A DNA stretch of 64,000 bases from Coleofasciculus sp. LEGE 07092. Lineage in GTDB: Bacteria; Cyanobacteriota; Cyanobacteriia; Cyanobacteriales; Coleofasciculaceae. Position numbers and translations under genes: made by a program. Shown piece by piece: positions 11,941-52,279 of this stretch. Below the pieces are notes generated by a model. It had not been told where the DNA came from. It was given only the letters and a program-made list of their open reading frames with translations, and made no database searches. The first letter of the stretch is position 1. The number at the start of each line of letters is the position of its first letter. The stretch spans positions 1-64,000 of the forward strand of contig NZ_JADEWY010000003.1 of the NCBI RefSeq assembly GCF_015207375.1, read 5' to 3'.

Positions 11941-13164
11941 ATGAAAGTCTTACGGATAAACCAATCCGATACTTCCGGAGGGGCGGCGATCGCAGTTTAT
12001 CGATTGCATCAAGGTTTACTAGCTCAAGGTATTGAATCGCGATTTTTAGTCAACCAAGTTAACAGTAGTAGCAATTGCGTAGATGCTATCCCACCTAGAC
12101 GTAGAATTGACTATCAATTATTGCGCTTGACTCGACATATCGGATTCAACGATATTCATTTAACTAGTACATTTGATATTCTCAAACATTCGTTTTATCA
12201 AGAGGCAGACATCCTCCATTTTCACAACTTGCATGGTGGCTACTTTAACTATCTAGTACTTCCCTCATTGACAAAAAATAAGCCGTCCATTCTCACGTTA
12301 CACGATATGTGGGCAATTACTGGACATTGTGCTTATAGTTTTGATTGCGATCGCTGGAAAATTGGCTGTGGTCGATGTCCTTATCTACATACTTATCCAG
12401 CTATTCAGAGAGATAGTACTCGCTGGGAGTGGCAGCTAAAAAATTGGGTTTATAGTCGCTCAAATTTATGTGCTGTTGTGACGACTAGTCGCTGGCACGC
12501 TGAGCAGGCGAGGCAAAGTATGTTAAGCCATGTGCCAGTTCATCGTATTCCCCCCGGACTAGACACCCAAGCCTATCAACCCCTGGACTCTGAACAGTGT
12601 AGAGTACTGTTGGGTATACCAACTGACAAAAAAGTGCTGATGTTTGCTGCCGCCAAACTCAATGATCCGCGCAAGGGTGGTGATTTGCTGATAAAAGCAC
12701 TACAAAGTTTACCTGAATCTTTAAAAACTGAAACAATACTGCTAATTCTGGGTAATGGCGGGGAAGCAATCGCAGAGACAGTGGGGATACCCACTCTCAA
12801 TCTTGGCTTTGTCGGTAGCGATCACTTAAAATCCGTTGCTTATTCTGCTGCTGACTTGTTCCTCTTTCCCACTCGTGCTGAGAATTTCGGACTGGTAGCG
12901 CAGGAAGCAATGGCTTGTGGAACACCAACAGTATCCTTTAAAATTGGCGGGGTTCCCGATTTGGTGCGTCCGGGTGTTACAGGCTATTTAGCTAAACCTG
13001 AAGATGTGACAGATTTCTGTAATGGTATTATGCAATTGCTTGAAGATCGGAGTCTACGTGAGTATTTAGGTCAACAATGTCGTAGGATTGTCCTTGAAGA
13101 ATACCAATTAGAACTCTATGCTCAACGATATATTGAGCTGTATCATCAGGCTTTGGCAAACTAG
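11941..13164 (+). CDS. GT4-family glycosyltransferase
   Basis: A 407-residue GT-B enzyme. The N-terminal acceptor domain has 'SGGAAIAVYRLHQGLLAQGIES' and 'ILTLHDMWAITGHC', typical of colanic-acid WcaC-like members. The C-terminal donor domain has 'FPTRAENFGLVAQEAMACGTP', containing the retaining-GT4 E-x7-E pair, then 'GGVPDLVRPGVTGYLA'. It should transfer a sugar from a nucleotide donor to a lipid-linked oligosaccharide at the inner membrane. Its start lies about 20 bp after the permease deletion point and no ribosome site is evident. Confidence 0.88.
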   Translation: MKVLRINQSDTSGGAAIAVYRLHQGLLAQGIESRFLVNQVNSSSNCVDAIPPRRRIDYQLLRLTRHIGFNDIHLTSTFDILKHSFYQEADILHFHNLHGGYFNYLVLPSLTKNKPSILTLHDMWAITGHCAYSFDCDRWKIGCGRCPYLHTYPAIQRDSTRWEWQLKNWVYSRSNLCAVVTTSRWHAEQARQSMLSHVPVHRIPPGLDTQAYQPLDSEQCRVLLGIPTDKKVLMFAAAKLNDPRKGGDLLIKALQSLPESLKTETILLILGNGGEAIAETVGIPTLNLGFVGSDHLKSVAYSAADLFLFPTRAENFGLVAQEAMACGTPTVSFKIGGVPDLVRPGVTGYLAKPEDVTDFCNGIMQLLEDRSLREYLGQQCRRIVLEEYQLELYAQRYIELYHQALAN

Positions 13165-17369: not shown

Positions 17370-18314
17370 ATGTCAACTGTCTCCATTATTACCCCACTTT
17401 ACAATAAGGCAGCCTATATTACTGACACTATTCAATCGGTACTTTCCCAAACCTACTCCGACTGGGAAATGCTAATTGTAGATAATGGATCGACTGATAG
17501 TAGTTGGGAACAAGTTCAGCAAATTCAGGATTCGCGCATTCGCCTTTTGCAGTCACCGAAGCACGGACCAGGGGCAGCTCGCAATTACGGATTGACTCAT
17601 TCTCAGGGAGAATGGATTCAGTTTTTGGATGCCGATGACTTACTAGAACTCGACCATTTAGAATTACAGCTAGCAGTTGCCAAACAAAATCCTGATGCTG
17701 AAATTATTGTTTGCTATTGGCAAGAATTTAGCGATGATAATCCCACCCTTAAAACAATCAAGCAACCCTCAGGTATCGGACAGCCAATTCAGGTTCTGCG
17801 GGATAGTGCGATCGCTTTTGCTCCTTGGGCTGTACATGCAGCTTTAGTCAAACGCTCTACCCTATCTCTTGATTGTTATTGGTCCGAGCAACTCGATCTG
17901 TACTTAGGAGAAGATATTGCGTTTTGGTTTAAATTGCTGAGTAGATGCACAGTAGCTTATGGAGAAAGCAAAGGAGCACTCTATCGTATCCATACTTCCC
18001 AGTGCCGCACTCAATACTTAAATCCTGAAAAATGGTTTGAAGGAGTTCATGCAGCAATTGAGTTAAATCGGCAGTATTGGCACAATACGAACCACTCCTA
18101 CACGCCAAGGCAATGCGAAACTCTGATGCGTGTTTATTCAGAAATTTATTGTTTGGCACGGAAACAGAAATCACCTACTGTAGAAGAGCAAGCCCTGTCT
18201 GAGGCATCAGGCTGGTTAAGCGAGTATTTTCGAGTAGCGCCTAAACCGAAGCCATCAATGCTCCTTCGTCGTCTGATGGGAATCAAGCCTTTTTTAAGGC
18301 TGACTCAACGTTAG
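17370..18314 (+). CDS. GT2-family glycosyltransferase
   Basis: A 314-residue GT-A enzyme without membrane helices. It starts 'VSIITPLYNKAAYITDTIQS' with 'MLIVDNGSTDSSW', the nucleotide-binding part. The DxD-type 'QFLDADDLLE' lies near residue 90, and 'GEDIAFWFKLL' supplies the catalytic-base region. AAGGGGAA precedes the ATG. It should be an inverting transferase assembling the repeat unit on the cytoplasmic face. Confidence 0.9.
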   Translation: MSTVSIITPLYNKAAYITDTIQSVLSQTYSDWEMLIVDNGSTDSSWEQVQQIQDSRIRLLQSPKHGPGAARNYGLTHSQGEWIQFLDADDLLELDHLELQLAVAKQNPDAEIIVCYWQEFSDDNPTLKTIKQPSGIGQPIQVLRDSAIAFAPWAVHAALVKRSTLSLDCYWSEQLDLYLGEDIAFWFKLLSRCTVAYGESKGALYRIHTSQCRTQYLNPEKWFEGVHAAIELNRQYWHNTNHSYTPRQCETLMRVYSEIYCLARKQKSPTVEEQALSEASGWLSEYFRVAPKPKPSMLLRRLMGIKPFLRLTQR

Positions 18315-18419
18315 GCATTCTTGATGAGGTGGTGTCTTCTATCCCGATCACCTAGCGGCAGACGTGTATAGTAGGTAGATGCCTCGGCTCTTGCTCATCC
18401 TCGTATTCTGATTCCAGTG

Positions 18420-19163
18420 ATGTTATCACGCTCACTCAGAAATTTAGTCTTCAAGTTTCGCTATGGGTTCAAGGGAGTTCCTTTCCAAATCGCCGATCAA
18501 ACTATACGCCTTGATGAGTCCCTCAGACGCTGGAATGTTGGAGCAGAGTTGTCTGCTCATCAGATTTTAGCAGAATATTTAGGTAAAGGTGATATATTTA
18601 TTGACGTTGGCGCAAATTTTGGCTTACATACGCTCTATGCTGCTAAATTAGTCGGCAATCAAGGTCATGTATTTGCTTTTGAACCCGTACTATCAAACTT
18701 AAAACTGTTGCAAAAAAATGTAGCCTTGAGTGGGGTTCAGCAGCAGGTAGAAATTGTGTCCAAAGCACTGTCGAATTCATCTGAATCCTTTTTGACGTTT
18801 TATCTCCCACCAGAAGAGGTTGCAGTAACTGCCTCTATCTGTCCAAGTGACGAAAACATTCAGACAACAAAAGTTGCAAACGTTCGTCTTGATGATTATT
18901 GGAGCAATATCAACCTACCAGTCCACCTCATCAAGATTGATGTAGAAGGAGCTGAATTAGAAGTTTTGCGGGGAGCAGAAAAACTGCTTAAACAATGGCA
19001 GCCGCAGTTACTGATTGAAGTTCATGGATTCGCCCTGCCTAACTTCAACACTAGTGTAGACGAACTGCGAGAATTTCTGAAAGCGCTTGGCTACCAAGAA
19101 CGGTTATTAGAGGGAGATCAATTCCACGAGGAACACTATTTTCAGGCGCTTTACAGTAGCTAG
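18420..19163 (+). CDS. FkbM-family methyltransferase
   Basis: A 247-residue protein with FkbM hallmarks: 'IFIDVGANFGLHTLYAAK' as SAM motif I, 'VFAFEPV', and the C-terminal 'LIKIDVEGAELEVLRGAEKLL' followed by 'LLIEVHG'. FkbM-type enzymes methylate hydroxyl groups of sugars or lipids, so O-methylation of a glycan residue is the likely role. An adjacent GTG at 18417 could serve as start and adds one Met. Confidence 0.88.
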   Translation: MLSRSLRNLVFKFRYGFKGVPFQIADQTIRLDESLRRWNVGAELSAHQILAEYLGKGDIFIDVGANFGLHTLYAAKLVGNQGHVFAFEPVLSNLKLLQKNVALSGVQQQVEIVSKALSNSSESFLTFYLPPEEVAVTASICPSDENIQTTKVANVRLDDYWSNINLPVHLIKIDVEGAELEVLRGAEKLLKQWQPQLLIEVHGFALPNFNTSVDELREFLKALGYQERLLEGDQFHEEHYFQALYSS

Positions 19164-19193
19164 ATAAATCATATTTCATTCTTGAAACAGCCT

Positions 19194-20336
19194 ATGAGAT
19201 TTGGTATTGTTGTAACCACTATTTACGGTGGTGATTTCATCAATGAGTATTATAACCACTTCCTAGCTTGTAGCGACGTTGAGCAAATTCATTTCTACGT
19301 GGTAGGCGATCTCTCAACACCAGATGGCTGCCGAGAGCAGGTAGAGAAATATACCAAGCAGGGTCTACCTTGGTATTACCTAAACCCAGACCAACAAAAT
19401 GAGTTTCTCAAGCCTTTCCCAAAACTTGCTGCTGAAATTCCTTGGCAGACTGACAACCGCCGTAATGTGGGATTTTTAATGGCTTATCGCGATCATTGTG
19501 ATGTTATTATTGCAATTGATGACGATAACTATCCCCAAAAAGACTGGCAGTTTCTTGGAGGACATTCTACAGTTGGTCAAGAAGTTTCTCTTCTCACAGC
19601 CGTTGGATACAATGGCTGGTTTAACTCCTGCTCTATGATGGACGTTCAATGCCCTTCTTTGGGAAGTGGAGAGACAGTTTATGCTAGAGGCTTTCCTTAT
19701 CAGCGTCGTTACACCGCCTGTTCACAGATTGATACCGAAATTTCTACAGGAATTGTCGCTGTCAATGCAGGTCTTTGGTCAGGTGATCCTGATGTTGATG
19801 CTGCCACTCGTTTGGTTACTCGTTGTGTTGCCAAAGAAAAGTTTACCACTGACTACCTCCTTGCACCTAACACATTGATGCCAATCAATACTCAAAACAC
19901 CGGGATTATTCGAGAGGCTATTCCAGCTTACTATTATGTCAAAATGGGGCATCCAGTTGGGGGCATGAAACTCGATCGTTTTGGTGACATTTTTAGCGGC
20001 TTTTTTGTGCAGAAATGCGTTCAATCTGTGGGACATCGGATTAAAGTTGGCTCTCCGGTTGTGGAGCATCGCCGTTCTCCTCACAACCTCTACAAAGATC
20101 TCTGGCATGAATTAGCAGGTATGGTTGTCCTTGATGATATGTTGTCGCTCCTGGAAGAGCCTTTGCCCCCTACCAAGAGTTATGAGGAGGCAGCGCTCAC
20201 ACTAGCTGGCAAACTTCGAGTGTGGACACACAAGCAAAATGGTTTTCTCTGGGATGACTCTCTTCGTGCTTATTTCGACAATGTTGCCGATAATATGTTG
20301 CTCTGGGTTGATACTTGCAGGCAGCTTGATAGTTAG
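19194..20336 (+). CDS. Reversibly glycosylated polypeptide (UDP-arabinopyranose mutase-like, GT75)
   Basis: A 380-residue protein aligning over its length, from memory, with plant RGP/UAM proteins. Matching segments are the 'IIAIDDDNYP' DDD motif (109-111), 'VYARGFPYQRRY' opposite plant 'VRGYPFSLREG', 'AGLWSGDPDVDAATRLV', 'MPINTQNTGIIREAIPAYYY', 'RFGDIFSGFFVQKC' and the C-terminal 'YFDNVADNMLLWVDTC'. Plant UAMs interconvert UDP-arabinopyranose and UDP-arabinofuranose and are auto-glycosylated on an arginine of the R-x6-R pair. Both arginines (165 and 172) are present here. It may therefore make a furanose donor or act as a related glycosyltransferase. ATG 19194 is preferred to TTG 19182. Confidence 0.75.
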   Translation: MRFGIVVTTIYGGDFINEYYNHFLACSDVEQIHFYVVGDLSTPDGCREQVEKYTKQGLPWYYLNPDQQNEFLKPFPKLAAEIPWQTDNRRNVGFLMAYRDHCDVIIAIDDDNYPQKDWQFLGGHSTVGQEVSLLTAVGYNGWFNSCSMMDVQCPSLGSGETVYARGFPYQRRYTACSQIDTEISTGIVAVNAGLWSGDPDVDAATRLVTRCVAKEKFTTDYLLAPNTLMPINTQNTGIIREAIPAYYYVKMGHPVGGMKLDRFGDIFSGFFVQKCVQSVGHRIKVGSPVVEHRRSPHNLYKDLWHELAGMVVLDDMLSLLEEPLPPTKSYEEAALTLAGKLRVWTHKQNGFLWDDSLRAYFDNVADNMLLWVDTCRQLDS

Positions 20337-20402: not shown

Positions 20403-21479
20403 ATGAGGTATATTACTCAATTAGATGGAATTCGTGCAATCTCTGTCATTTTTGTCCTTATCGGTCATTGGTCTACGCCACCTCTCAAAAACGCTATACC
20501 GTGGGGAAACATCGGAGTTTATACCTTCTTCGTCATCAGCGGTTATCTGATCACGAGCATCTTGTTAGAACTCAAAGCTGTAATGACACCAGGTTCCGCT
20601 TTGAGCAATTTTTGGGGACGGCGCATCCTTCGTATTTTCCCAATTTATTATCTTACTATTACTATTCTCTGGCTTATTCAACATCAGCCTGTATCAGATC
20701 ATGCAGTATGGCATTTTACATTTTTATCTAATTTCTTAATGATGTCATCTGTGGGATATCAAGGTACTACAGACCATCTGTGGTCTTTGGCAGTCGAAGG
20801 TCAGTTCTATCTCGTTTGGCCCCTTGTCATTTTTTTACTGAACGATAAATATTTACCCCCAATCATTCTATCTTTACTCATTCTCAGTCCAGTGTGCCGT
20901 TTTGCGCTTTATATGCTGGGGATGGGTTCTATTATTAAAGTATTCCCCCTCTCTTCTGTAGACTTTTTAGGAATTGGCGCACTTGTAGCATTAGGAAATA
21001 GCAATAGACAGTTCATGGGATTTAATAGTAAAGAGTTCTTAAAAGCAGTTGCTCCTTTTGCTGCTACGGGATTTGTTTTAATCGAATTATTAAGGCATTT
21101 GGGATACCACAATATCCTGTACAGTTTAGTAGAAACATCTTGTTTAGTTTTAGGGTTAGGTTGGTTGATTAGTGCTACCTCGAAGGGAATAACTGGAATC
21201 TTCAAAACTTTATTAGACTTAAAGGGACTTCGGTTCATCGGGCGTATTTCTTACGGTTTATATCTCTACCATTTGTTTGTTTCTTATTATCTAGTCAAAG
21301 CTTTTCCCCGGCTTTCCTTAGAAGAAGGTATCGGCAATCCTTGGGTGAGTTTTATGATATTTTTTATAGGTTCCTTTCTTTTGGCAACTGCCTCATGGTT
21401 TATAGTAGAAAAACCTTTGATGATTTTCAAAAAATATTTTCCTCTCCATAATCAAAAAAGTAGCAAACAAACGACTTAA
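20403..21479 (+). CDS. Acyltransferase-3 family membrane protein (OafA-like)
   Basis: A 358-residue polytopic protein with about ten helices. The family signature opens the chain: 'LDGIRAISVIFVLIGHW' with the catalytic His near residue 22. It is followed by 'RRILRIFPIYYL' and 'DHLWSLAVEGQFYLVWPL'. Members transfer acetyl or other acyl groups to extracytoplasmic sugars, so it probably acetylates the growing or finished polysaccharide. The gene is preceded by 66 bp and followed by 124 bp of non-coding sequence. Confidence 0.9.
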   Translation: MRYITQLDGIRAISVIFVLIGHWSTPPLKNAIPWGNIGVYTFFVISGYLITSILLELKAVMTPGSALSNFWGRRILRIFPIYYLTITILWLIQHQPVSDHAVWHFTFLSNFLMMSSVGYQGTTDHLWSLAVEGQFYLVWPLVIFLLNDKYLPPIILSLLILSPVCRFALYMLGMGSIIKVFPLSSVDFLGIGALVALGNSNRQFMGFNSKEFLKAVAPFAATGFVLIELLRHLGYHNILYSLVETSCLVLGLGWLISATSKGITGIFKTLLDLKGLRFIGRISYGLYLYHLFVSYYLVKAFPRLSLEEGIGNPWVSFMIFFIGSFLLATASWFIVEKPLMIFKKYFPLHNQKSSKQTT

Positions 21480-21603: not shown

Positions 21604-22626
21604 ATGATTTCCCTCGTCACTACTGTACTCAATGATCGGCAAGGATGTGTGGCATTCTTCTCCCAAATGGATATACAAACTTGTCTGCCGAATGAAATTG
21701 TCATTGTAGATGGTGGTTCAACAGATGGGACTTGGGAATTTCTGCGAAACTATCAACCCAATCAACCTTACTCAGTACGGGTTATTCAAGAAGTTGGTTG
21801 TAATGTCGCTCGTGGTCGGAATTTAGCGATCGCTCATGCTAAAAATGAGCTGATTGCCTCTACAGATATCGGTTGTCTCTGGGAACCTCAGTGGCTGGAG
21901 GAACTTGTCCAACCATTATTAGAAGATAGCCACCTAGAAGCTGTAATGGGAAGTTGGCAAGTGTGCTGGGACGATTTGAAAAGTGATTGGGCAAAAATTG
22001 AGTATGTGTTATACAATCAACTGAAATTAATCGCTACTCCTAAATCTCATGCGTCCTCACGCTCAATTGCCTATCGCAAGTCGTTGTGGGAAAAGATTGG
22101 TGGGTATCCTGAAGATTTAACGTTAGCAGGAGATGATATGGTTTTTGCCCTGCTGTTGCATCAGAAAACCGCTTGTGTTGGTTGCGCCCCTATCCCGCGT
22201 TGTTATTGGCAGCGTCCTGTCAGCTTGAAGTCTTTTTGTCAGGAAGCTCGCCGCAACTTTCGCGGTGGCGGGGAGGCAGGTATTTGGTTAGATTATGGAA
22301 TTCTGGTAGGGGGCAGGTTGTTGAGTGAAGTATTACTCTTGCTTATCGGTCTAATTTGGTTACTGGGGGCTTCCCCCAGTTGGGGAGGGGCAATTTTATT
22401 AAGTGTTTTTTTCGTCAGCTTAGGGCTGCGAGTATTACGATTAGTCCCAACAATTGAACGCTTTCACAGCTATGATGAATTAGAGGGATGGTTCCGCCTT
22501 CTATTTTTTGAATATCTGATTAAGTTTTGGGGTTTAGTTGGGCATTGGCAGGGATTTATCTCAGGATTTAAACATTGCCATGAATGCCGAAAAAGGCTTC
22601 GTAGCTTAAACAGTAAGATGGTATAA
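21604..22626 (+). CDS. GT2-family glycosyltransferase with C-terminal membrane helices
   Basis: A 340-residue protein. The GT-A domain shows 'MISLVTTVLNDRQGCVAFF', 'EIVIVDGGSTDGTWEFL' and a metal site 'IASTDIGCLW' in place of a canonical DxD. 'LAGDDMVFALLL' marks the catalytic base. Two or three hydrophobic helices at about 235-300 ('LLSEVLLLLIGLIWLLG', 'GAILLSVFFVSLGLRVL') anchor it in the membrane. It resembles cyanobacterial GT2 enzymes of exopolysaccharide loci. The sugar specificity is unknown. Confidence 0.85.
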   Translation: MISLVTTVLNDRQGCVAFFSQMDIQTCLPNEIVIVDGGSTDGTWEFLRNYQPNQPYSVRVIQEVGCNVARGRNLAIAHAKNELIASTDIGCLWEPQWLEELVQPLLEDSHLEAVMGSWQVCWDDLKSDWAKIEYVLYNQLKLIATPKSHASSRSIAYRKSLWEKIGGYPEDLTLAGDDMVFALLLHQKTACVGCAPIPRCYWQRPVSLKSFCQEARRNFRGGGEAGIWLDYGILVGGRLLSEVLLLLIGLIWLLGASPSWGGAILLSVFFVSLGLRVLRLVPTIERFHSYDELEGWFRLLFFEYLIKFWGLVGHWQGFISGFKHCHECRKRLRSLNSKMV

Positions 22627-22635
22627 ATATTACAG

Positions 22636-23781
22636 ATGAAACTTCTTTATTACTCACCAGCTAGTTATGGAGGCATTGCTGATTACGCCCACGAGCAGGC
22701 AAATGCTTTGGGGACGTTGGGAGTAGACGTGACTTTCCTTTGCACTCCCAACTATCCGACTGGTAGGGGGGAAACATATAAGGTTATGCCAATTCTGCAA
22801 GACATAACCTTTAAGAATTTAATTCCCCATAAAATATTAAAATCAGTACACTTTAGTTATGTCATTCTGACCAACTTTAACAAATTGGCTAGATTTATTG
22901 AGAAAAATGGCTATCAGTATGTGTTGCTAGGTTCATATGTGGAATATTTAGCGCCTATCTGGTCTGGTCGTTTGAGAAAATTAGCCAAGAAAGGAGTTAT
23001 ATTTAGTGCTGTCGTACATGACCCCGTGCGTAATTTTGTCGTTGGGCCTCGCTGGTGGCATCGCTGGTCAATCGCCTGTGGTTATTCTTTCTTAAGGGAA
23101 GCCTTTGTTCATGAAGCTATTGAACTCGATACCATTCGGTCAATGCCTCAACTCCAAACAACTGTAGTTCCCCACGGAACATATTGCTTTCCTGATGCCA
23201 ATCAATCGCGAGAAAAAACACGAGCTAGTCTGGATTTGACCCTTGACGCAAAACTAATGCTGGCTTTTGGTCATATTCGCGATAACAAGAATCTCGATCT
23301 TGTGATCCGAGCAATGGTAAATTTTCCTGATTTATATCTACTTGTTGCTGGAAAAGAACAATCATCAGGTCAGCGTCCCGCAGCTTTTTATCAGCAGTTA
23401 GCAACTAATCTAGGAGTGGCAAATCGCTGTCGATGGAAAATCCAATTTATCCCAGATATGGAAGTTGCTAACTTCTTTTTAGCTGCCGATCTTATTCTTC
23501 TTACCTACAGCAAAACTTTTCACTCTGCAAGCGGGGTCTTAAATGCAGCAGTTAGTTACCGGAAACCTTGTCTGGCTTCAGCAGGTGGAGGCTTTTTATA
23601 TTCTGTAATCCGAACATATAAGCTGGGAATAGGGATTGAGGCGGATGATGTAGATTCTATAGTGAATGGAATCAGACGGTGGTTAGAAAATTCCCCCAGT
23701 CCTCAATGGGAAAGATATTGTAAGGAAAAGAATTGGAAGCTGAATGCCGAGTTAGTGATAGCTCGTTTAGGTTATATTTAG
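22636..23781 (+). CDS. Glycosyltransferase (GT4-like, atypical donor motif)
   Basis: A 381-residue GT-B protein. The acceptor domain carries 'YYSPASYGGIADYAHEQANAL' and the donor domain 'KLMLAFGHIRDNKNLDLVIRAM'. The position of the E-x7-E motif reads 'TYSKTFHSASGVLNAAVSYRKP', without the first Glu, a variation also seen in some polysaccharide glycosyltransferases. It starts 10 bp after the GT2 gene, so the pair is co-transcribed. Confidence 0.82.
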   Translation: MKLLYYSPASYGGIADYAHEQANALGTLGVDVTFLCTPNYPTGRGETYKVMPILQDITFKNLIPHKILKSVHFSYVILTNFNKLARFIEKNGYQYVLLGSYVEYLAPIWSGRLRKLAKKGVIFSAVVHDPVRNFVVGPRWWHRWSIACGYSFLREAFVHEAIELDTIRSMPQLQTTVVPHGTYCFPDANQSREKTRASLDLTLDAKLMLAFGHIRDNKNLDLVIRAMVNFPDLYLLVAGKEQSSGQRPAAFYQQLATNLGVANRCRWKIQFIPDMEVANFFLAADLILLTYSKTFHSASGVLNAAVSYRKPCLASAGGGFLYSVIRTYKLGIGIEADDVDSIVNGIRRWLENSPSPQWERYCKEKNWKLNAELVIARLGYI

Positions 23782-41885: not shown

Positions 41886-42737
41886 ATGAAAGTCGCTATT
41901 CTGGCTGGTGGACTTGGCACTCGCCTTGCTGAAGAGACAGGCGTAAAGCCAAAGCCGATGGTAAAAATCGCCGGAAAACCCATTCTCTGGCATATTATGA
42001 TGCACTACTCCTATTATGGCTTCCGTAATTTTGCGATCGCCCTCGGCTATAAAGGTGAAGTCATCAAGAAGTACATGGTAGACTATTGCTCCTTAAACAG
42101 CACTCTCACCGTAGATTTTCCAACTGGAGAAGTGACGATGAAAGGCGGGCGCATACCCCCTTGGAAAGTTGATTTAGTGGATACCGAGGTTCATACCCAA
42201 ACAGGAGGGCGGCTCAAGCGTCTTACTCCCTACCTAGATAATGAAACGTTCATGCTCACCTACGGAGATGGTGTATCTGATATTAATTTATCAGAGCTAC
42301 TAGCATTCCACCGCTCTCACGGCAAATTGGCAACTCTCACAGTCGTCCATCCACCCGCACGCTTTGGTTATTTGGAACTTGATGGTGAGTACGTCAAAGA
42401 GTTCTCAGAAAAACCGCAAACCCGAGAAGGATGGATTAATGGTGGCTTTTTTGTTCTAGAACCAGCAGTCCTTGATTACATTGACGGGGATGATACCCAA
42501 TGGGAGAAAGAACCCTTGGAGCGATTGGCAAAAGATGGGCAGCTCATGGCTTATCAGCATACGTCCTTCTGGCAATGTATGGATACCTTGCGCGATAAGC
42601 GATTTTTAGAAGCCCTTTGGCAGAGTGGTGATATACCCTGGAAAGTTTGGGAGGAGCAAAATGCGTTTATTACTGACCGGTCACAAGGGCTACATTGGGA
42701 CAATTCTGACCCCTATGCTGTTGGCAGAGGGGCATGA
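41886..42737 (+). CDS. rfbF: Glucose-1-phosphate cytidylyltransferase
   Basis: A 283-residue nucleotidyltransferase that makes CDP-glucose from CTP and glucose 1-phosphate. '[19 protein letters not shown]' is the signature loop, followed by '[18 protein letters not shown]' with the conserved Lys residues. '[10 protein letters not shown]' and '[18 protein letters not shown]' follow. The usual family length is near 257; here about 25 extra residues read over the start of the next gene (77-bp overlap). CDP-glucose feeds 3,6-dideoxy or branched-sugar pathways. Confidence 0.93.
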
Positions 42738-43698
42738 GGTTGTCGGTGTTGATAGCGATTTGTTTGAGCAAAGCACCTTTGGGGATGGGATAGTCAATAT
42801 ACCTGAACTGAAAAAGGATATTCGTGACATAGAAGCATCAGACCTGAGGGGATTCGAGGCTATATTACATTTAGCGGGTCTTTCTAATGATCCCCTTGGC
42901 AACTTGAATGCGGAGTTAACTTACGAAATTAATCATTTGGCATCGGTGCGTTTGGCTGCCTTGGCAAAACAGGTAGGGGTAGAACGCTTTCTTTTCTCAT
43001 CCTCTTGCAGCACTTACGGCGCAGCAGGTAAGGATAAAGTCACGGAGGAAGCCCCATTCAATCCCGTTACCCCTTACGGAGAGTCAAAAGTGCTAGTCGA
43101 ACGGGACGTCTCAAAACTGGCTGATGATGACTTCAGTCCTACATTTCTGCGCAATGCCACTGCCTACGGTGCATCGCCCCGTCTACGTTTCGATTTGGTG
43201 TTGAATAATCTGGTTGCCTGGGCAGTGACAACCGGACGAATTTATATTAAAAGCGATGGTACTCCTTGGCGTCCCATTGTTCATATTGAAGATATCTCAC
43301 GGGCTTTCATTGCTGTATTGCACGCACCTCGGGAAGTCATCCACAACCAAGCGTTCAATGTGGGCAGTACAGAGGAGAACTATCAAATCTGCGACTTAGC
43401 TGAAATTACGCGGGAAGTCGTTCCTAGTTGCCAGATTGAATATGCTCCAGACGGAGAACCAGACAAACGCTGCTATCGAGTAGATTTTAGTAAAATAAGG
43501 CGAGTCTTACCCGAATTCAAACCCCAGTGGAATGTACGGCTGGGGGCAAACCAGCTTTATGAAGCGTACCAGAAGGTGGGGCTATGTGTGGATGATTTTG
43601 AAGGATCGCGCTACAAGCGTATCGACCACATTAAACAACTGCTAAGTAGCGATCGCTTAGACCTTACCTTACGCTGGAGGAGTTACGCAAACTCATGA
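42661..43698 (+). CDS. NAD-dependent epimerase/dehydratase (extended SDR)
   Basis: A 345-residue SDR enzyme starting at ATG 42661 behind GGGAGGAG, inside the end of rfbF. The NAD loop is '[14 protein letters not shown]', with '[14 protein letters not shown]', the catalytic 'FSSSCSTYG' and 'YGESKVLVE' (Y-x3-K) following. It resembles nucleotide-sugar 4-epimerases/reductases that travel with sugar C-methyltransferases. It lacks the 'GHTGFKG' opening of CDP-glucose 4,6-dehydratase, so its step is probably a 4-keto reduction or epimerisation. Its stop overlaps the next gene by 4 bp. Confidence 0.87.
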
Positions 43699-44972
43699 AA
43701 ATTGCTGAAGCACTCCCTCAGGGAAAAAAAGCAGGAAGCATTCGAGGTTACTGTCGGTTCTGCGAAACACCCTTACAACATACCGTTGTCGATTTGGGGA
43801 TGTCGCCGCCTTGCAACCGGATTCTCACCTTTGAGCAGTTGAATCAGCTCGAAGCATTCTATCCTCTACAGGTGTTTGTTTGCGATCGCTGCTTTTTAGT
43901 GCAACTGCTTGAGTATGTCAGTCCGGTGGAAATCTTCAACGAGTATTCCTACTTTTCGTCCTATTCAGATTCTTGGTTACAACACGCCAAAGGATACACA
44001 GAAACGATAGTAGAGCGTTTCGGATTGCACGGGCAAAGTCAAGTTGTGGAAATTGCCAGCAATGACGGTTATCTACTGCAATACTTTATGGAGAAAGGGA
44101 TACCTGTTTTGGGAATAGAACCCGCCGCGAATGTAGCTGAGGTGGCGCTGCAAAAAGGTATTCCCACCGTGGTGAAGTTCTTTGGAGAGCAAACCGCTCA
44201 CGAACTAGTTGCTGAAGGGAGGCAAGCTGACTTACTTATAGGGAATAACGTATTGGCTCATGTTCCTAATCTCAACGATTTTGTGGCGGGGATGAAGATT
44301 CTCCTCAAGCCCCACGGCGCAATTACCATGGAGTTTCCCCATCTGATGCGTTTGATGGAGTGTAACCAATTTGATACCATTTACCACGAGCATTTCTCCT
44401 ATTTCTCGTTCACGACGGTTGAAAGAGTTTTTGCCGCCCACGGATTGACTTTGTTTGACGTGGAGGAGTTGCCTACCCACGGAGGTTCTCTGAGAATTTA
44501 CGGCTGTCATACTGAAGACCAGTCTAAACCAATTCGCGATCGCGTCACTGAATTAAAACATCGGGAAGATGCTGCTGGTTTGACCCGTTTAGACACTTAC
44601 TTTACCTTTAGTGAACAGGTCAAAGCTACTAAACGTAAGCTATTGGAGTTCTTGATTGCCGTCAAGAACCAGGGAAAATCAATTGTGGGTTACGGTGCCC
44701 CTGGTAAGGGGAATACTCTCTTAAACTACTGCGGCATTCGTTCTGATTTTATCGACTATACGGTTGACCGCAGTCCCTACAAACAAGGACAATTTTTACC
44801 AGGAACTCATATTCCCATCTTTCATCCTGACAAAATAAAGGAAACCCAACCGGATTACTTGCTCATCCTGCCTTGGAATCTCTTAGAGGAAATCACCGAG
44901 CAAATGTCTTATATCCGTGATTGGGGGGGGCAATTTGTTGTTCCGATTCCTGAAGTCCAGGTTTATCAATGA
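43695..44972 (+). CDS. Sugar C-methyltransferase (zinc-binding, TylCIII/NovU-like)
   Basis: A 425-residue three-part enzyme. The N-terminal zinc module has '[17 protein letters not shown]' and 'CDRCF'. The central Rossmann SAM domain has '[15 protein letters not shown]'. The C-terminal Methyltransf_14 part has '[18 protein letters not shown]'. Family members C-methylate 4-keto-sugar nucleotides to give branched sugars. Overlapping ATGA junctions on both sides couple it to the SDR and the epimerase, so the four genes form one pathway cassette. Confidence 0.92.
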
Positions 44973-45499
44973 TTTTCACTGAGACGAAGCTAAAGGGCGC
45001 GTTCTTTATTGAACCGGAACGATTGCAGGACGAACGCGGCTTTTTTGCCAGAACCTGGTGTCAGCAAGAATTTGAACAACAGGGACTGAATCGGCGATTG
45101 TTACAGTGCAACATTTCTTTCAATCCTCAAAAGGGAACCCTGCGGGGTATGCACTATCAAGTTGCTCCTCACGCGGAAGCTAAACTAGTGCGGTGTACGG
45201 CGGGAGCTATTTATGATGTCATTCTCGATCTACGTCCTGAATCTTTAACCTTTAAGCATCATATCGGTGTGATTCTTTCAGCAGAAAACTACAAAATGCT
45301 TTATGTGCCTGAGAGGTTCGCCCATGGATTTCAAACGTTGGAGGATAATACAGAAGTGTTTTACCAAATGTCAGAGTTTTACCATCCCGAATCGGCAAAA
45401 GGAGTCAGGTGGAATGATCCAGCCTTTGGCATCAACTGGTTGCTTGACGTTACGTTAATTTCTCCCAAAGATCGACACTATCCTAATTTTATTTCATGA
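44969..45499 (+). CDS. dTDP-4-dehydrorhamnose 3,5-epimerase family protein
   Basis: A 176-residue cupin of family-typical length. 'ERLQDERGFFARTW' and 'LRGMHYQ' carry the catalytic His (about 62), and 'VFYQMSEFYHPESAKGVRWNDP' carries the catalytic Tyr (about 132). It epimerises C3 and/or C5 of a 4-keto-6-deoxy sugar nucleotide. Because it is coupled to rfbF and a C-methyltransferase rather than rmlA/rmlB, the substrate here is probably a CDP-sugar and not dTDP-rhamnose precursor. Confidence 0.9.
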   Translation: MIFTETKLKGAFFIEPERLQDERGFFARTWCQQEFEQQGLNRRLLQCNISFNPQKGTLRGMHYQVAPHAEAKLVRCTAGAIYDVILDLRPESLTFKHHIGVILSAENYKMLYVPERFAHGFQTLEDNTEVFYQMSEFYHPESAKGVRWNDPAFGINWLLDVTLISPKDRHYPNFIS

Positions 45500-45524: not shown

Positions 45525-47066
45525 ATGAAAGGACTCAAGGGACTACCTCCAGTCTGGTTACGGTATTTAATCATTGCCGTTTTAGGGTTAGGCATATTTT
45601 TTCGAGGGGTTAACCTCGACGGAAAAGTCTTTTGGGGAGATGAAGTTGTGACGTTGTTGCGCATTTCTGGCTACACACAGGCAGAATTTGTGCAACAGCT
45701 ACCTTACAATCAAGTTATTAGCATTGAGGAGTTGCAGAAGTATCAGCGTCCTAAACCGGAAAGCAATGTGAGTGATACGATTGGCTCGTTAATCGCCGAA
45801 GATCCCCTGCAACCGCCCTTATATTTTGCTATTGGGCGATTTTGGGTCGATGGGTTTGGCAGTTCGCCGACAGCAATCCGCAGTTTGTCTGTTCTGTTGA
45901 GCTTACTTGTGTTTCCCTGCCTTTATTGGCTATGCCAAGAATTGTTTGAATCCCCCTTAGTGGGATGGATAGCGATCGCTTTATTTGCCATCTCGCCGTT
46001 CCACGTCCTCTATGCTCAAGAAGCTCGACAGTACAGTTTGTGGACTGCTACCATCCTGCTATCGGGTGCAGCTCTTTTGGGGGCGATGCGGCGGCAAACT
46101 CGGCTGAGTTGGGTGATTTACGCGGGGACGACGATTCTGGGGTTTTACACTCACCTTTTTTCGTTATTTGTCACCCTAGGACAGGGAATTTATGTAGCGA
46201 TCGCCCAGCGCTGCCGTTTGAATAAGATAACGATCGCTTATCTACTGGCATCAGGTGCAGCTTTTTTAGGGTTCCTTCCCTGGCTTCTCAATGACAAAGT
46301 TGACGAGCCAACTTGGACTGCTCAACCCATGTCTTTGCCGTCTTTAATCAAAATCTGGGTAGGGAATATAACGCGGATTTTTTTCGATTTAAATTTTGAT
46401 ACCAATACTCCGCTAATCTACGCCATTCCTCCGACTTTAATCCTACTAAGCTTGATCGGATATGCCATTTATTTTCTGTTTCGCCACACCCCCCAACGGA
46501 TTTGGCTGTTTATTTTAACCTTGATTGGTGCGACGGGGCTGGCTCTTATCCTCCCTGATGTAATTGTCGGCGGCAGGCGTTCGAGTATTAGTCGATACCT
46601 GACACCCTGTTACGTGGGTATTCAGTTAGCGGTTGCTTACCTGCTGGCAACCCAGATGGGTTCTAGAGGTTGGCAGCAAAAGTTTTGGCAGGTTGTTACT
46701 GCTGGACTCATTTCCGTTGGAGTCGTGTCCTGTGCATTCAGCTCCCAAGCTAATACCTGGTGGCACAAGAAGCCTAATCATTATAATCCCCAAATTGCTC
46801 GGATTGTCAATCAAGCTCCCCGCCCCCTTTTAATTAGCAATGAGGAGGCGATTTACTGGCTAGTGTCTCTAAGTTATCTACTGGAACCTAAGGTGCAATT
46901 ACAATTAATAGTTGATCCAACTGTGCCTGAGCGTTCTGAAGGGTTTAGTGATGTGTTTTTATTCCATCCCTCCCAGAATTTGCGAGATGGAATTGAGGCA
47001 AAATTAAAAGATGAGATAAAACCGAGTTTTGAACAGGGTGGACTTTGGTATCTGGAAAAATCCTAA
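45525..47066 (+). CDS. GT39-like (PMT/ArnT-type) membrane glycosyltransferase, paralog 1
   Basis: A 513-residue polytopic GT-C enzyme. A first helix is followed by the loop motif 'FWGDEVVTLLRISGYT', whose Asp-Glu is the family's catalytic acidic pair. Conserved 'PLYFAIGRFW', 'FPCLYWLCQELFE' and 'ISPFHVLYAQEARQYSLW' follow, then further helices and a short soluble C-terminal domain. GT39 enzymes use polyprenyl-phosphate sugars outside the cytoplasm. It is the first of four closely related copies up to 53.9 kb, separated from the second by the FAD oxidoreductase gene. Confidence 0.87.
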   Translation: MKGLKGLPPVWLRYLIIAVLGLGIFFRGVNLDGKVFWGDEVVTLLRISGYTQAEFVQQLPYNQVISIEELQKYQRPKPESNVSDTIGSLIAEDPLQPPLYFAIGRFWVDGFGSSPTAIRSLSVLLSLLVFPCLYWLCQELFESPLVGWIAIALFAISPFHVLYAQEARQYSLWTATILLSGAALLGAMRRQTRLSWVIYAGTTILGFYTHLFSLFVTLGQGIYVAIAQRCRLNKITIAYLLASGAAFLGFLPWLLNDKVDEPTWTAQPMSLPSLIKIWVGNITRIFFDLNFDTNTPLIYAIPPTLILLSLIGYAIYFLFRHTPQRIWLFILTLIGATGLALILPDVIVGGRRSSISRYLTPCYVGIQLAVAYLLATQMGSRGWQQKFWQVVTAGLISVGVVSCAFSSQANTWWHKKPNHYNPQIARIVNQAPRPLLISNEEAIYWLVSLSYLLEPKVQLQLIVDPTVPERSEGFSDVFLFHPSQNLRDGIEAKLKDEIKPSFEQGGLWYLEKS

Positions 47067-47120
47067 TAAAAAGGATTCGCTTTTCTAAATCTTGATAAAA
47101 CCTTAACGAAGATTAATAAC

Positions 47121-48782
47121 ATGACTCAGAAAGTAGCGATTATTATTGGAGCCGGACCGGCGGGATTAACAGCAGCTTATGAGCTGCTCCAGAAAACCGA
47201 TATTAAACCCATTGTTTATGAAATGAGTAATGAAATAGGAGGGATTTCTAGAACGGTTAAGTATAAAGGCTATCGTATGGATATCGGGGGACACCGATTC
47301 TTTTCTAAGTCCACTACTGTTATGGATTGGTGGTTAAAGATTTTACCGATAGAAGCCAGCCAAACTGAAAAAATAACTATTGCTTATCAAAATAAAACCC
47401 AGGAAATTAAAGCTACAGTTCAAGCAGAAGATGCAAAAGAAACGGATTTAGTCATGTTAGTCCGTAACCGCAAATCCAGAATATTTTTCCTCAGAAGCTT
47501 TTTTGATTATCCGATTAAATTAAACAAGAATACAATTTTTAATCTGGGTTTTAATAGGACGTTCAACATTCTATTTAGTTACTTAAAAACTCGGATCGCG
47601 CCTATCAAAAATGAAAAAAATTTAGAGGAGTTTTTTATTAACCGTTTTGGCAGAGTTTTGTATCGTACATTCTTTAAATCCTATACGGAAAAAGTTTGGG
47701 GAGTTTCCTGCTCAGACATTAGTGCCGAGTGGGGCGTTCAACGGATTAAGGGTTTATCCATTTCAAAAACCATTGAACACATTCTCAGAAAGATACTAAG
47801 GCTAAACTCTAAATCTATAGCTCAGAAAAATGTTGAAACCTCTTTAATCGAGCGATTTCTTTATCCGAAATACGGACCGGGGCAGCTTTGGGAAGAGGTG
47901 GCAGAGCGTATTCAGGCAGGGGGAGGAGAAATTCATCTTAATGTTGGGGTTAAAAAGCTATTTTTAGACGGAAATCAAATTACGTCTGTAGACCTGGGGA
48001 ATGCAGTCACAGGTGCGACTGAACGGGTAGAAGGAGACTACTTCTTTTCCACTATGCCTGTTAAAGAGTTAATCAGGGGATTGCAGACGGATATTCCTTC
48101 AAAAGTGAGTGAAGTGAGTGAGGGATTAGTTTACCGAGACTTTATCACGGTCGGTTTATTAGTAGAAAAACTTTCAATCCGAGATAAAGATAAAAGCAAA
48201 AAATTGATTCAAGACAACTGGATTTACGTTCAGGAACCGGATGTCTTGTTAGGTCGAATTCAAATTTTTAATAATTGGAGTCCTCATTTAGTTCAAGATA
48301 TTTCTAAAGTTTGGTTAGGATTGGAGTATTTTTGCTATGAGTCTGACGAGTTATGGCAGATGAGTGATGAAGCGATGGCAAATTTTGCCATTGATGAATT
48401 AGCCAAAATAGGCTTTATCTGTAAATCAGATGTATTGGATAGTACAGTAATTCGAGTCCCTAAAACTTACCCAGCTTATTTTGGCACTTATCCAAAGTTT
48501 GATAAAATCAAAACCTATCTTGAGCGTTTTCAAAATCTTTACTTGATTGGCAGAAATGGAATGCACAAGTATAACAATCAAGATCATTCGATGTTGACGG
48601 CTATAGCAGCGGTAGAAAATATTAGAGATGGGGTCAATGATAAATCGAACATTTGGGAAATAAACACAGAGCAGGATTATCATGAAGCTAAATCTCACGA
48701 AAAAAGTACAGCGAAAAAAACGAAACCTAAGCGCTTTTTCAGTCAATCTATAGTCAATTTTTTAAGAAAAATTGGATTATAA
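47121..48782 (+). CDS. FAD-dependent oxidoreductase (amine-oxidase/UDP-galactopyranose mutase superfamily)
   Basis: A 553-residue flavoprotein. The dinucleotide fold is '[18 protein letters not shown]', followed by '[24 protein letters not shown]', here split around residue 45. The C-terminal FAD contact is '[23 protein letters not shown]'. Such proteins occur in polysaccharide loci, and the fold is shared with UDP-galactopyranose mutase and protoporphyrinogen oxidase. The reaction cannot be assigned. A basic C-terminal tail ('[12 protein letters not shown]') is unusual. It sits between GT39-like copies. Confidence 0.82.
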
Positions 48783-48903
48783 ACTGCATTTTTTCTCAAT
48801 TTTTTGATTAGTAATCAGGCTAAGGAAAACGAACAGCTTGATAATCAACCAAAAATCTCAGGCGATCGCAAGTCGCGGGCTTAATCGAAGTTCATAATAA
48901 GCT

Positions 48904-50577
48904 ATGAAATTCCTGAAGCTACTGCCTCAAATTAGGGTGAGATATTTAATCATTATCGTTTTAGTACTGGGTGTATTTTTTCGATTTGTTAATCTGGAGC
49001 AAAAATTTTACTGGTACGATGAGGTCTACACCTCATTACGAGTTTCTGGCTACACGAGTACAGAAGTCATCCAAGACTTGCTTGATGGTCATGTTATTAG
49101 CATTGAAGAGTTACAGAAGTACCAACACCCCAACTCGGACAAAGGTGTAATCGATACAGTCAAGGGTTTAGCGATTGAAGAAACACAACTGCCGCCCCTG
49201 TATTTTTTGATGACGCGGTTTTGGGTGCAGTTGTTAGGTCATTCCGTGGCAGTGACTAGAAGTTTGTCTGCCTTGTTGAGCTTGCTGGTGTTTCCTTGCC
49301 TCTATTGGCTGTGCCGAGAATTATTTGAGTTTCCGTTAGTTGGATGGGTAGCGATCACACTGATGGCTGTTTCACCGTTCCATGTACTGTACGCTCAGGA
49401 AGCCCGAATGTATAGTTTGTGGACGGTTACTATTTTGCTATCGAGTGCTGCTTTACTACGAGCCGTGCGTGTTAACACCAAAGGGAGTTGGGGACTCTAT
49501 AGCGTAACCTTAGCATTAGGACTTTATACTCACTTGCTTTCTGTGTTAGTTGCTATCGCCCACGTAATTTATATCGCTGTTATCGAACGCTTCAAATTGA
49601 GTAAGGTAGCGAGGGCTTATCTTTTTGCATCCTTAGGGGGATTCCTTATTTTTTCACCTTGGCTTTTAGTCGTTATCATTCACTTTTATGGAACGGGAGG
49701 TGTAACAGGGTGGACGGGGAACAGCTTGTCCCTTTTAACCTTAGTGAAAATTTGGATTCTTGGCATCAGTCGAGTTTTCTTTGATGTAGATCTTGATAGT
49801 GTTATTGAGCAGTATGCAATAGGACTAGGTTTAGGCAATAATTCTGCCGTTAAAGAGGTCTTTGCCAACTCAGTTTTATTAATTTCAGTAAGTATCATTC
49901 TTCTCGTCTTAGGATTAATTGCCTATTCACTTTATTTTCTCTGCCGCCAAAGCCCTAAACGGGTGTGGCTGTTTATCCTAACCTTGGGTGGAGTTACAGC
50001 CTTGAGTAAAATTTTGCCAGATTTGATCTGGGGGGGGCAGCGGTCGGCAGTCAGTCGTTATCTTATTCCCTGCTATTTATCTCTACAGTTAGCGGTAGCT
50101 TACTTACTGGCGAGTAAAATTAGCACGATTTATGCTGGAACTCGGCAACAGAAGCTATGGAGAGTTGCCACAATTGCATTGATTTCGAGTGGGGTTTTAT
50201 CTTGTGCAGTTATTTCTCAGGCAGAGGCTTGGTGGAATAGACCCGGTTCCCCCTACCATTATCCAGCCCGACTGATTAATCAAACGGCTAACCCCCTGTT
50301 AGTGAGTGATGCGGTTATAAACTGGTCAACTTCTAGCAGTCATTTGCTCGATCCAGATATTAACCTTGTCATTGGTTTTAGCTATCTGCTTGGGCAAAAC
50401 GTGAGATTTCAGTTTGTATTTGAACCCCAAATTCCTCAAATTCCTGAAGAGGTCAGAGACGTGTTTTTCTTCAGTCCGTCTAAAACCCTGCGTTCTGGAC
50501 TCATTCAAGAATATAAACACAAGATAGAACCAATTTATAAGCCCGGTGATATTTGGTATTTTGAAAAATTGGAGTAA
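48904..50577 (+). CDS. GT39-like membrane glycosyltransferase, paralog 2
   Basis: A 557-residue copy closely similar to paralog 1. It has 'FYWYDEVYTSLRVSGYT', 'PLYFLMTRFWVQLLGHS', 'VSPFHVLYAQEARMYSLW' and the late block 'GGQRSAVSRYLIPCYLSLQLA'. It carries an extra ~40-residue loop near residues 285-330 ('GTGGVTGWTGNS' and 'GLGLGNNSAVKEVFANS'), explaining its greater length. The acidic pair is intact. Its start lies 121 bp after the flavoprotein gene. Confidence 0.87.
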   Translation: MKFLKLLPQIRVRYLIIIVLVLGVFFRFVNLEQKFYWYDEVYTSLRVSGYTSTEVIQDLLDGHVISIEELQKYQHPNSDKGVIDTVKGLAIEETQLPPLYFLMTRFWVQLLGHSVAVTRSLSALLSLLVFPCLYWLCRELFEFPLVGWVAITLMAVSPFHVLYAQEARMYSLWTVTILLSSAALLRAVRVNTKGSWGLYSVTLALGLYTHLLSVLVAIAHVIYIAVIERFKLSKVARAYLFASLGGFLIFSPWLLVVIIHFYGTGGVTGWTGNSLSLLTLVKIWILGISRVFFDVDLDSVIEQYAIGLGLGNNSAVKEVFANSVLLISVSIILLVLGLIAYSLYFLCRQSPKRVWLFILTLGGVTALSKILPDLIWGGQRSAVSRYLIPCYLSLQLAVAYLLASKISTIYAGTRQQKLWRVATIALISSGVLSCAVISQAEAWWNRPGSPYHYPARLINQTANPLLVSDAVINWSTSSSHLLDPDINLVIGFSYLLGQNVRFQFVFEPQIPQIPEEVRDVFFFSPSKTLRSGLIQEYKHKIEPIYKPGDIWYFEKLE

Positions 50578-50632
50578 ATGTATAGAGGTCTAGATAATTG
50601 GCAATTGAGTCATCTTTATCCACATTATAATA

Positions 50633-52240
50633 ATGATGATAAATTTCTGGAAAAGCAAAACGCAGAAACTGTACGGGGACGGCTTAAAAGCTTTAATTAT
50701 TATCGCAATAGTGCTTGGTTTATTCTTTCGGTTCGTCAATCTAGACGGAAAAATTTACTGGTTTGATGAAGTTTTGAGTTCCCTACGAATTGCTGGCTAC
50801 ACGAGAGCTGAATTGTTCCAAGAAGTCGCAAGCAGTCAGCCCATGACCCTTCAAGATTTGCAGCATTATCAGAGTCCTAACTCTGAAAAAGGCTTGAGGG
50901 ATACGATTAAATCGTTGGTAGTAGAAGACCCCCTGCAATCACCACTCTATTTTATACTGGGGCGATTTTGGATGCAGTTATGGGGTAATTCTGTAGCAGT
51001 GATCAGAAGTTTATCGGCTCTGTCGAGCTTACTTGCTTTTCCCTGCCTCTATTGGCTGTGTCGAGAACTCTTTGAGTCACCGCTTGTGGGATGGATAGCG
51101 ATGGCTCTGATTGCGGTTTCACCCTTTCATGTGCTGTATGCCCAGGAAGCACGGATGTACAGTTTATGGACTGTAACAATTTTACTATCTAGCGCGGTAC
51201 TCCTAAAGGCTATGCGGGTCAAAACCCACCTGAGTTGGGGAACCTATGCGGCAACAGTTGCACTAGGACTTTATACTCATCTTTTTTCAATTTTTGTTTT
51301 CATGGGGCATGGTGTCTATGTTTTGATAACCGAACGCTACCGTTTTAGTAAGAGGTTTAGGGTATATCTCTTGGCATCGCTGGCAGGATTTCTAGGGTTC
51401 CTACCCTGGATTTTAGTAGTCGCGTCTCACTTGAGCCTTATCCAGCAACAAACAGCCTGGCAATCTGCTAGAGTCAGTGTGTTGTCTTTGGGGCAAACTT
51501 GGGTGGTTAACCTGAGTCGTATTTTTTTTGATGTGGGTATTGGTGCTGGTGATGCCCATTTAGATACTTATGCAGTTCTTTTAATTGTCCCGATTTTAAG
51601 CTTATTAGGGTTAAGCGCCTATGCCGTTCATTTCCTTTATCGTTATAGTCCAAAGCACGTTCGATTATTTGTCTTGACCTCAATTGGGGCGACAGCACTA
51701 GCCTTAATTCTCCCTGACTTAATTATAGGAGGTCGTCGATCAACCTTTGCTCGATATCTCATTCCTTCCTATTTGGGTATTCAATTAGCGGTTGCCTACC
51801 TTTTCTCTACTAAAGTCACTATTATTCCTCTTAAGACAACCTTCCAGAAGTTGTGGCAAAGCTTTTTTGTCTTAGTGTTATCAGCAGGAATTTTATCATG
51901 TGTCATTAGCGCTCGTTCTGAAACCTGGTGGAACAAGTCTATTAATGAGTCGGTTCCCCAGGTTGCTCGTCTTATTAACCAATCTAAAAAACCGCTGTTG
52001 ATTAGTGACAATAGTGAGGTTAGTGCCATTTTACCTCTGATTTATGTATTAGATAATAAGGTAAAGATAATGTTTATAGCAACTCCCAAAATCCCTAATA
52101 TTAATTCAAAATTTAATTCCATTTTCTTAATCTATGCTTCTGAAGAACTACGAGATAAGCTTGAAGAAAATCGTGACTACAAAATCGATACGATTTATAA
52201 ACCTGGTGAGCTTTTGCTCCTAGAAAAAAGCCGTGAATAA
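50633..52240 (+). CDS. GT39-like membrane glycosyltransferase, paralog 3
   Basis: A 535-residue copy. It keeps 'IYWFDEVLSSLRIAGYT', 'SPLYFILGRFWMQLWGNS', 'VSPFHVLYAQEARMYSLW' and 'GGRRSTFARYLIPSYLGIQLA'. Two adjacent ATG codons at 50633 and 50636 could start it. The short overlapping frame at 50578-50766 is an out-of-frame shadow. It probably shares acceptor chemistry with its neighbours but may use a different lipid-linked sugar. Confidence 0.87.
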   Translation: MMINFWKSKTQKLYGDGLKALIIIAIVLGLFFRFVNLDGKIYWFDEVLSSLRIAGYTRAELFQEVASSQPMTLQDLQHYQSPNSEKGLRDTIKSLVVEDPLQSPLYFILGRFWMQLWGNSVAVIRSLSALSSLLAFPCLYWLCRELFESPLVGWIAMALIAVSPFHVLYAQEARMYSLWTVTILLSSAVLLKAMRVKTHLSWGTYAATVALGLYTHLFSIFVFMGHGVYVLITERYRFSKRFRVYLLASLAGFLGFLPWILVVASHLSLIQQQTAWQSARVSVLSLGQTWVVNLSRIFFDVGIGAGDAHLDTYAVLLIVPILSLLGLSAYAVHFLYRYSPKHVRLFVLTSIGATALALILPDLIIGGRRSTFARYLIPSYLGIQLAVAYLFSTKVTIIPLKTTFQKLWQSFFVLVLSAGILSCVISARSETWWNKSINESVPQVARLINQSKKPLLISDNSEVSAILPLIYVLDNKVKIMFIATPKIPNINSKFNSIFLIYASEELRDKLEENRDYKIDTIYKPGELLLLEKSRE

Positions 52241-52279
52241 CTTAATAAAATTAGGGTAATTAGTAAACGTAGTAATTTT

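Follow-up and report, generated by a model that had tools for sequence, protein, structure and literature searches.

Only two bacterial members of GT75 have been characterised, MtdL and Hyg20, and both interconvert the pyranose and furanose forms of GDP-L-fucose and of GDP-L-galactose (PMC9937993). GT75 mutases require a divalent cation but not FAD (PMC9937993). MtdL belongs to the A201A pathway of Marinactinospora thermotolerans, and Hyg20, described as a GDP-L-fucose pyranose/furanose mutase, to the hygromycin A pathway of Streptomyces hygroscopicus (PMC9937993). In MtdL, substitutions of D87, D109, R159, D195, Q229, R257 or D260 leave no detectable activity, S228A lowers activity, S86D abolishes GDP binding and T13P weakens it (PMC9937993). 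The MtdL structures are entered in the PDB as 7xpr-7xpv, 7yua, 7yv0 and 8hl8, listed there as ‘Transglycosylse’, and the title of 7yua names a covalently acting arginine. The flavin-dependent UDP-galactopyranose mutase (GLF) carries out a reaction of the same type, but it is an unrelated flavoprotein.

We analysed a window of 64,000 nucleotides of Coleofasciculus sp. LEGE 07092 in which an intact open reading frame of 380 codons (19194..20336, + strand) encodes a predicted MtdL-type NDP-pyranose mutase. It runs from an ATG at 19194 to a stop at 20334-20336. An in-frame TTG at 19182 would lengthen the frame, but homologues begin at a point equivalent to the ATG, making this the better start. 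A Pfam search of the protein returned a single family, PF03214 (RGP), covering residues 81-378 with an E-value of 3.6e-14 and a score of 53.2 bits against a curated cut-off of 23.8; it gave no PF03275 (flavin UGM, GLF) domain, and an NCBIfam search with the protein returned no model. Together with the DDD motif (D109-D111) and the arginine R165, the profile match places the protein in GT75, as a sequence-only reading of this DNA had proposed, and the span of the match agrees with the alignment from the DDD motif to the C-terminus on which that reading was based.

Within the family, the closest solved structure is by a wide margin that of MtdL. A sequence search of the PDB aligned residues 4-376, the full length of the protein, with MtdL at 36-38% identity and an E-value of 2e-69, while the rice mutase UAM2 (8cid) was matched at 1e-3. 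We built an AF2 model from a 28-sequence alignment (pLDDT 92), and a structure search superimposed it on MtdL with a Z score of 50 and 2.0 Å over 366 residues. Rice UAM2 was the second-best fold (Z 30), and all others among the matches listed scored below 15, GT2 and other GT-A enzymes coming next. That order, the GT-A fold itself and the existence of inactive plant GT75 members (PMC9937993) are points in favour of an ordinary inverting GT-A glycosyltransferase that has the fold without mutase activity. The distance between MtdL and the other GT-A enzymes in the same search, and the fact that four of four orthologues keep the nucleophilic arginine along with every mutase residue, make such an enzyme very improbable, and no other GT-A family fits the protein better.

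Phylogeny led to the same relative. A tree of 43 proteins grouped the window protein with three orthologues (support 100/100), and this clade was nested in a 12-row clade (99/98) that otherwise held MtdL and seven viral proteins. The open reading frame is thus a cyanobacterial MtdL-type GT75 member, related to the antibiotic-pathway enzyme and, at the level of the whole family, to plant RGPs. Mutases of the MtdL clade on IMG/VR contigs (L036-L040, L042 and L061) keep nearly all of the active-site residues checked; the one on L038 has an apparent R257-to-H change, and downstream of it lie genes for a C-methyltransferase and, two genes away from the mutase, a GDP-mannose-dehydratase homologue. 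In the Synechococcus phages S-T4 and Sf-CH8, a GT75-related gene annotated as ‘hypothetical’ (L064:3914-4822 and L065:3965-4822) sits among heptose-pathway and glycosyltransferase genes that together form a cassette.

Alignment to MtdL allowed the active site to be compared residue by residue. In the nucleotide pocket, MtdL T13, I15, D40, N42 and S86 correspond to T8, I10, D39, S41 and T86 of the window protein; D87, R90 and D109-111 have the same number in both, and R159 and R166 correspond to R165 and R172. Further along, D195, S228, Q229, R257 and D260 pair with D200, T233, Q234, R262 and D265, and H287 (the metal ligand), R289 and H292 pair with H292, R294 and H297. All of the MtdL sugar, metal and phosphate residues checked are therefore kept, with a single serine-to-threonine change (S228 to T233). 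The guanine pocket is shared in part: Thr13 and Asp40 are retained, whereas Asn42 is replaced by serine and Ser86 by threonine. R165 aligns both with MtdL R159 and with the self-glycosylated arginine of plants, and its R-x6-R spacing to R172 was correctly noted from the sequence, as were the two arginines and D109-D111 themselves. Three other close homologues (69-84% identity) keep the DDD motif, R165 and R172 without exception, a degree of conservation far beyond chance. By analogy with MtdL, R165 is the predicted nucleophile, D265 the predicted general base and H292 a predicted metal ligand.

The sequence-only reading had gone further and called the protein a plant-type reversibly glycosylated polypeptide, that is, a UDP-L-arabinopyranose mutase making UDP-arabinofuranose. 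Plant enzymes (AtRGP1, rice UAM) do share with it GT75/PF03214 membership, the DDD motif, R-x6-R and the catalytic aspartate and arginine, and rice UAM2 is its nearest fold after MtdL. The rice UAM2 fragment is a poor reference for the active site, having DDN instead of DDD. As plant reference we used one sequence, taken to be AtRGP1; it scored 595 bits on PF03214, which makes it usable for this purpose, as against 53 for the window protein and 50 for MtdL. At MtdL positions 13, 42, 86 and 87, this plant sequence has Pro, Asp, Asp and Ser, where the window protein has Thr, Ser, Thr and Asp. In the 43-protein tree, in which it was the one representative of plant RGPs, it fell beside two haloarchaeal proteins, both branches being long and the program warning about the join, while the window protein stayed in the MtdL clade; a clade uniting the window protein with that single plant sequence was rejected by the AU test (p 0.00122).

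Profile score, base-pocket residues and tree, along with the far better PDB match to MtdL, led us to reject plant-type identity, which we regard as the least probable of the readings weighed here. Since its base-pocket residues are not those of plants, UDP-arabinopyranose is an unlikely substrate; plant enzymes use UDP-sugars, share only about 22-25% identity with the window protein and form a separate clade. Nor does any link to the origin of plant RGPs emerge, and a misleading connection to plant cell-wall evolution is thereby removed. A STELLO-type identity was likewise rejected: distant relatives of that type are found in other cyanobacteria, but the window protein does not belong among them. 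Bacterial STELLO-type proteins (PF03385; G016, G019, G036, Azospirillum and Sphingomonas) are distant homologues at 23-25% identity that have the DDD motif and the first arginine, but in which Asp87, the metal histidine and the second arginine of the window protein are missing. STELLO-like relatives in some cyanobacteria (L005-L008) likewise have the DDD motif and the first arginine without the second arginine or the metal histidine.

The surroundings of the gene point to polysaccharide synthesis, as had been proposed from the sequence. Directly upstream lies an FkbM-type methyltransferase gene (18417..19163, +; PF05050) kept in three of the four genomes, preceded by a GT2 glycosyltransferase gene (17370..18314, +; PF00535) whose product is a candidate acceptor-side enzyme, with homologues in L009 (cut by the contig end), L013 and L014. 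Directly downstream, an Acyltransferase_3 membrane protein (20403..21479, +; PF01757), present among the relatives only in L009, is followed by a second GT2 gene (21604..22626, +; PF00535), which may encode the furanosyltransferase, and by a GT4 gene (22636..23781, +; PF00534) of the same conserved cluster. Another GT4 gene of that cluster (11941..13164, +; PF00534) has homologues at 80% in L013 and 65% in L014. In all four genomes the first of the two GT2 genes is conserved next to the mutase gene and the second near or next to it, and the window from 11.9 to 31 kb is mostly collinear with a UBA11153 contig. The combination of GT4 and GT2 glycosyltransferases, FkbM methyltransferases, an acyltransferase and sulfotransferases fits a role in making an extracellular polysaccharide. 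Farther along, at 45525-53872, are four clearly related long open reading frames of 513-557 codons that resemble membrane glycosyltransferases, with a flavin amine-oxidase-like gene (47121-48782) between the first two.

Taken together, we put the probability that the gene encodes an MtdL-type mutase feeding polysaccharide synthesis at about 0.8, and a furanose donor for surface polysaccharide is its likely predicted product. Transferring every mechanistic step from MtdL, we infer that this member of the MtdL branch of GT75 is an NDP-pyranose mutase that needs Mn2+/Mg2+ but no FAD, in which the GT-A-like N-terminal domain would bind the nucleotide sugar and D109-D111 with H292 would hold the metal on the diphosphate. 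D265, with D200 and D87 nearby, would deprotonate R165, which would attack the anomeric carbon to give a covalent Arg165-sugar adduct; the pyranose ring would then open, O4 would attack C1 to close the furanose, and the NDP-furanose would be released. The most likely reaction would be conversion of GDP-L-fucopyranose to GDP-L-fucofuranose, which one or other of the GT2 enzymes encoded alongside may draw on to build the extracellular polysaccharide.

GDP-L-fucose is probably, though by no means securely, the sugar nucleotide used. The genome encodes a GDP-mannose 4,6-dehydratase (gmd; 555 bits, above the cut-off) and, adjoining it, a GDP-L-fucose synthase (fcl) whose top PDB match is a GDP-fucose synthetase (E 1e-114). 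Their presence counts as weak evidence on the substrate, given that they lie on a contig other than that of the mutase cluster and that fucose pathways are widespread. Together with the lack of any match to a GLF-type UGM in a whole-genome search of this strain and with the neighbourhood of the viral mutase on L038, they nonetheless favour a GDP-linked 6-deoxyhexose, GDP-L-fucose first among them. In a relative, the GDP-mannose 4,6-dehydratase gene (L063:1321-3360; G011:C230:34320-36350) is split in frame by roughly 350 residues that start with Cys and end with His-Asn before a Ser. This insert is probably an intein, judged from its sequence; its LAGLIDADG match is weak and below the cut-off.

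A mutase of the MtdL type might instead take a different NDP-pyranose, such as GDP-L-galactose, GDP-D-arabinose or a CDP- or dTDP-deoxysugar. This is a variant of the same explanation, with which its probability overlaps, and we consider it rather unlikely. Identity of 36-38% to MtdL allows a change of sugar, two base-pocket residues differ (N42 to S, S86 to T), MtdL and Hyg20 also accept GDP-L-galactose (PMC9937993), and further nucleotide-sugar genes that could supply such a deoxysugar lie about 20 kb downstream in the window (41886-45499). Against this, guanine-pocket Thr13 and Asp40 are kept, as is Asp87, and the genome has gmd and fcl.

Genes of this kind are rare and patchy in cyanobacteria. 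PF03214 occurs in 2 of 386 genomes sampled across the phylum, this genome being one of the two, and with the protein as query a close homologue (69-100%) was found in 4 of 22 family genomes, again including this one; a single-protein scan of genome contigs matched only close relatives. In the papers we searched, no account of a cyanobacterial GT75 member or furanose mutase turned up. The expectation that a furanose donor made in this way would be unusual in bacteria is overstated, MtdL and Hyg20 having shown that bacteria make furanose donors with GT75 mutases (PMC9937993). What is new, set against those papers, is the setting: the enzyme type is known from antibiotic clusters, and here it sits in a cyanobacterial polysaccharide cluster.

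The result adds a polysaccharide locus of a cyanobacterium, as well as viral contigs, to the actinobacterial antibiotic pathways from which flavin-free furanose mutases of the MtdL/Hyg20 type were known, and yields the specific prediction that GDP-L-fucofuranose is used for the polymer. More broadly, and at somewhat less than even odds, some filamentous cyanobacteria may use an MtdL-type GT75 mutase to make the L-fucofuranose, or other L-furanose, that they attach to a sulfated or methylated exopolysaccharide, which would be a use of this enzyme outside antibiotic biosynthesis, in a clade shared with phages.
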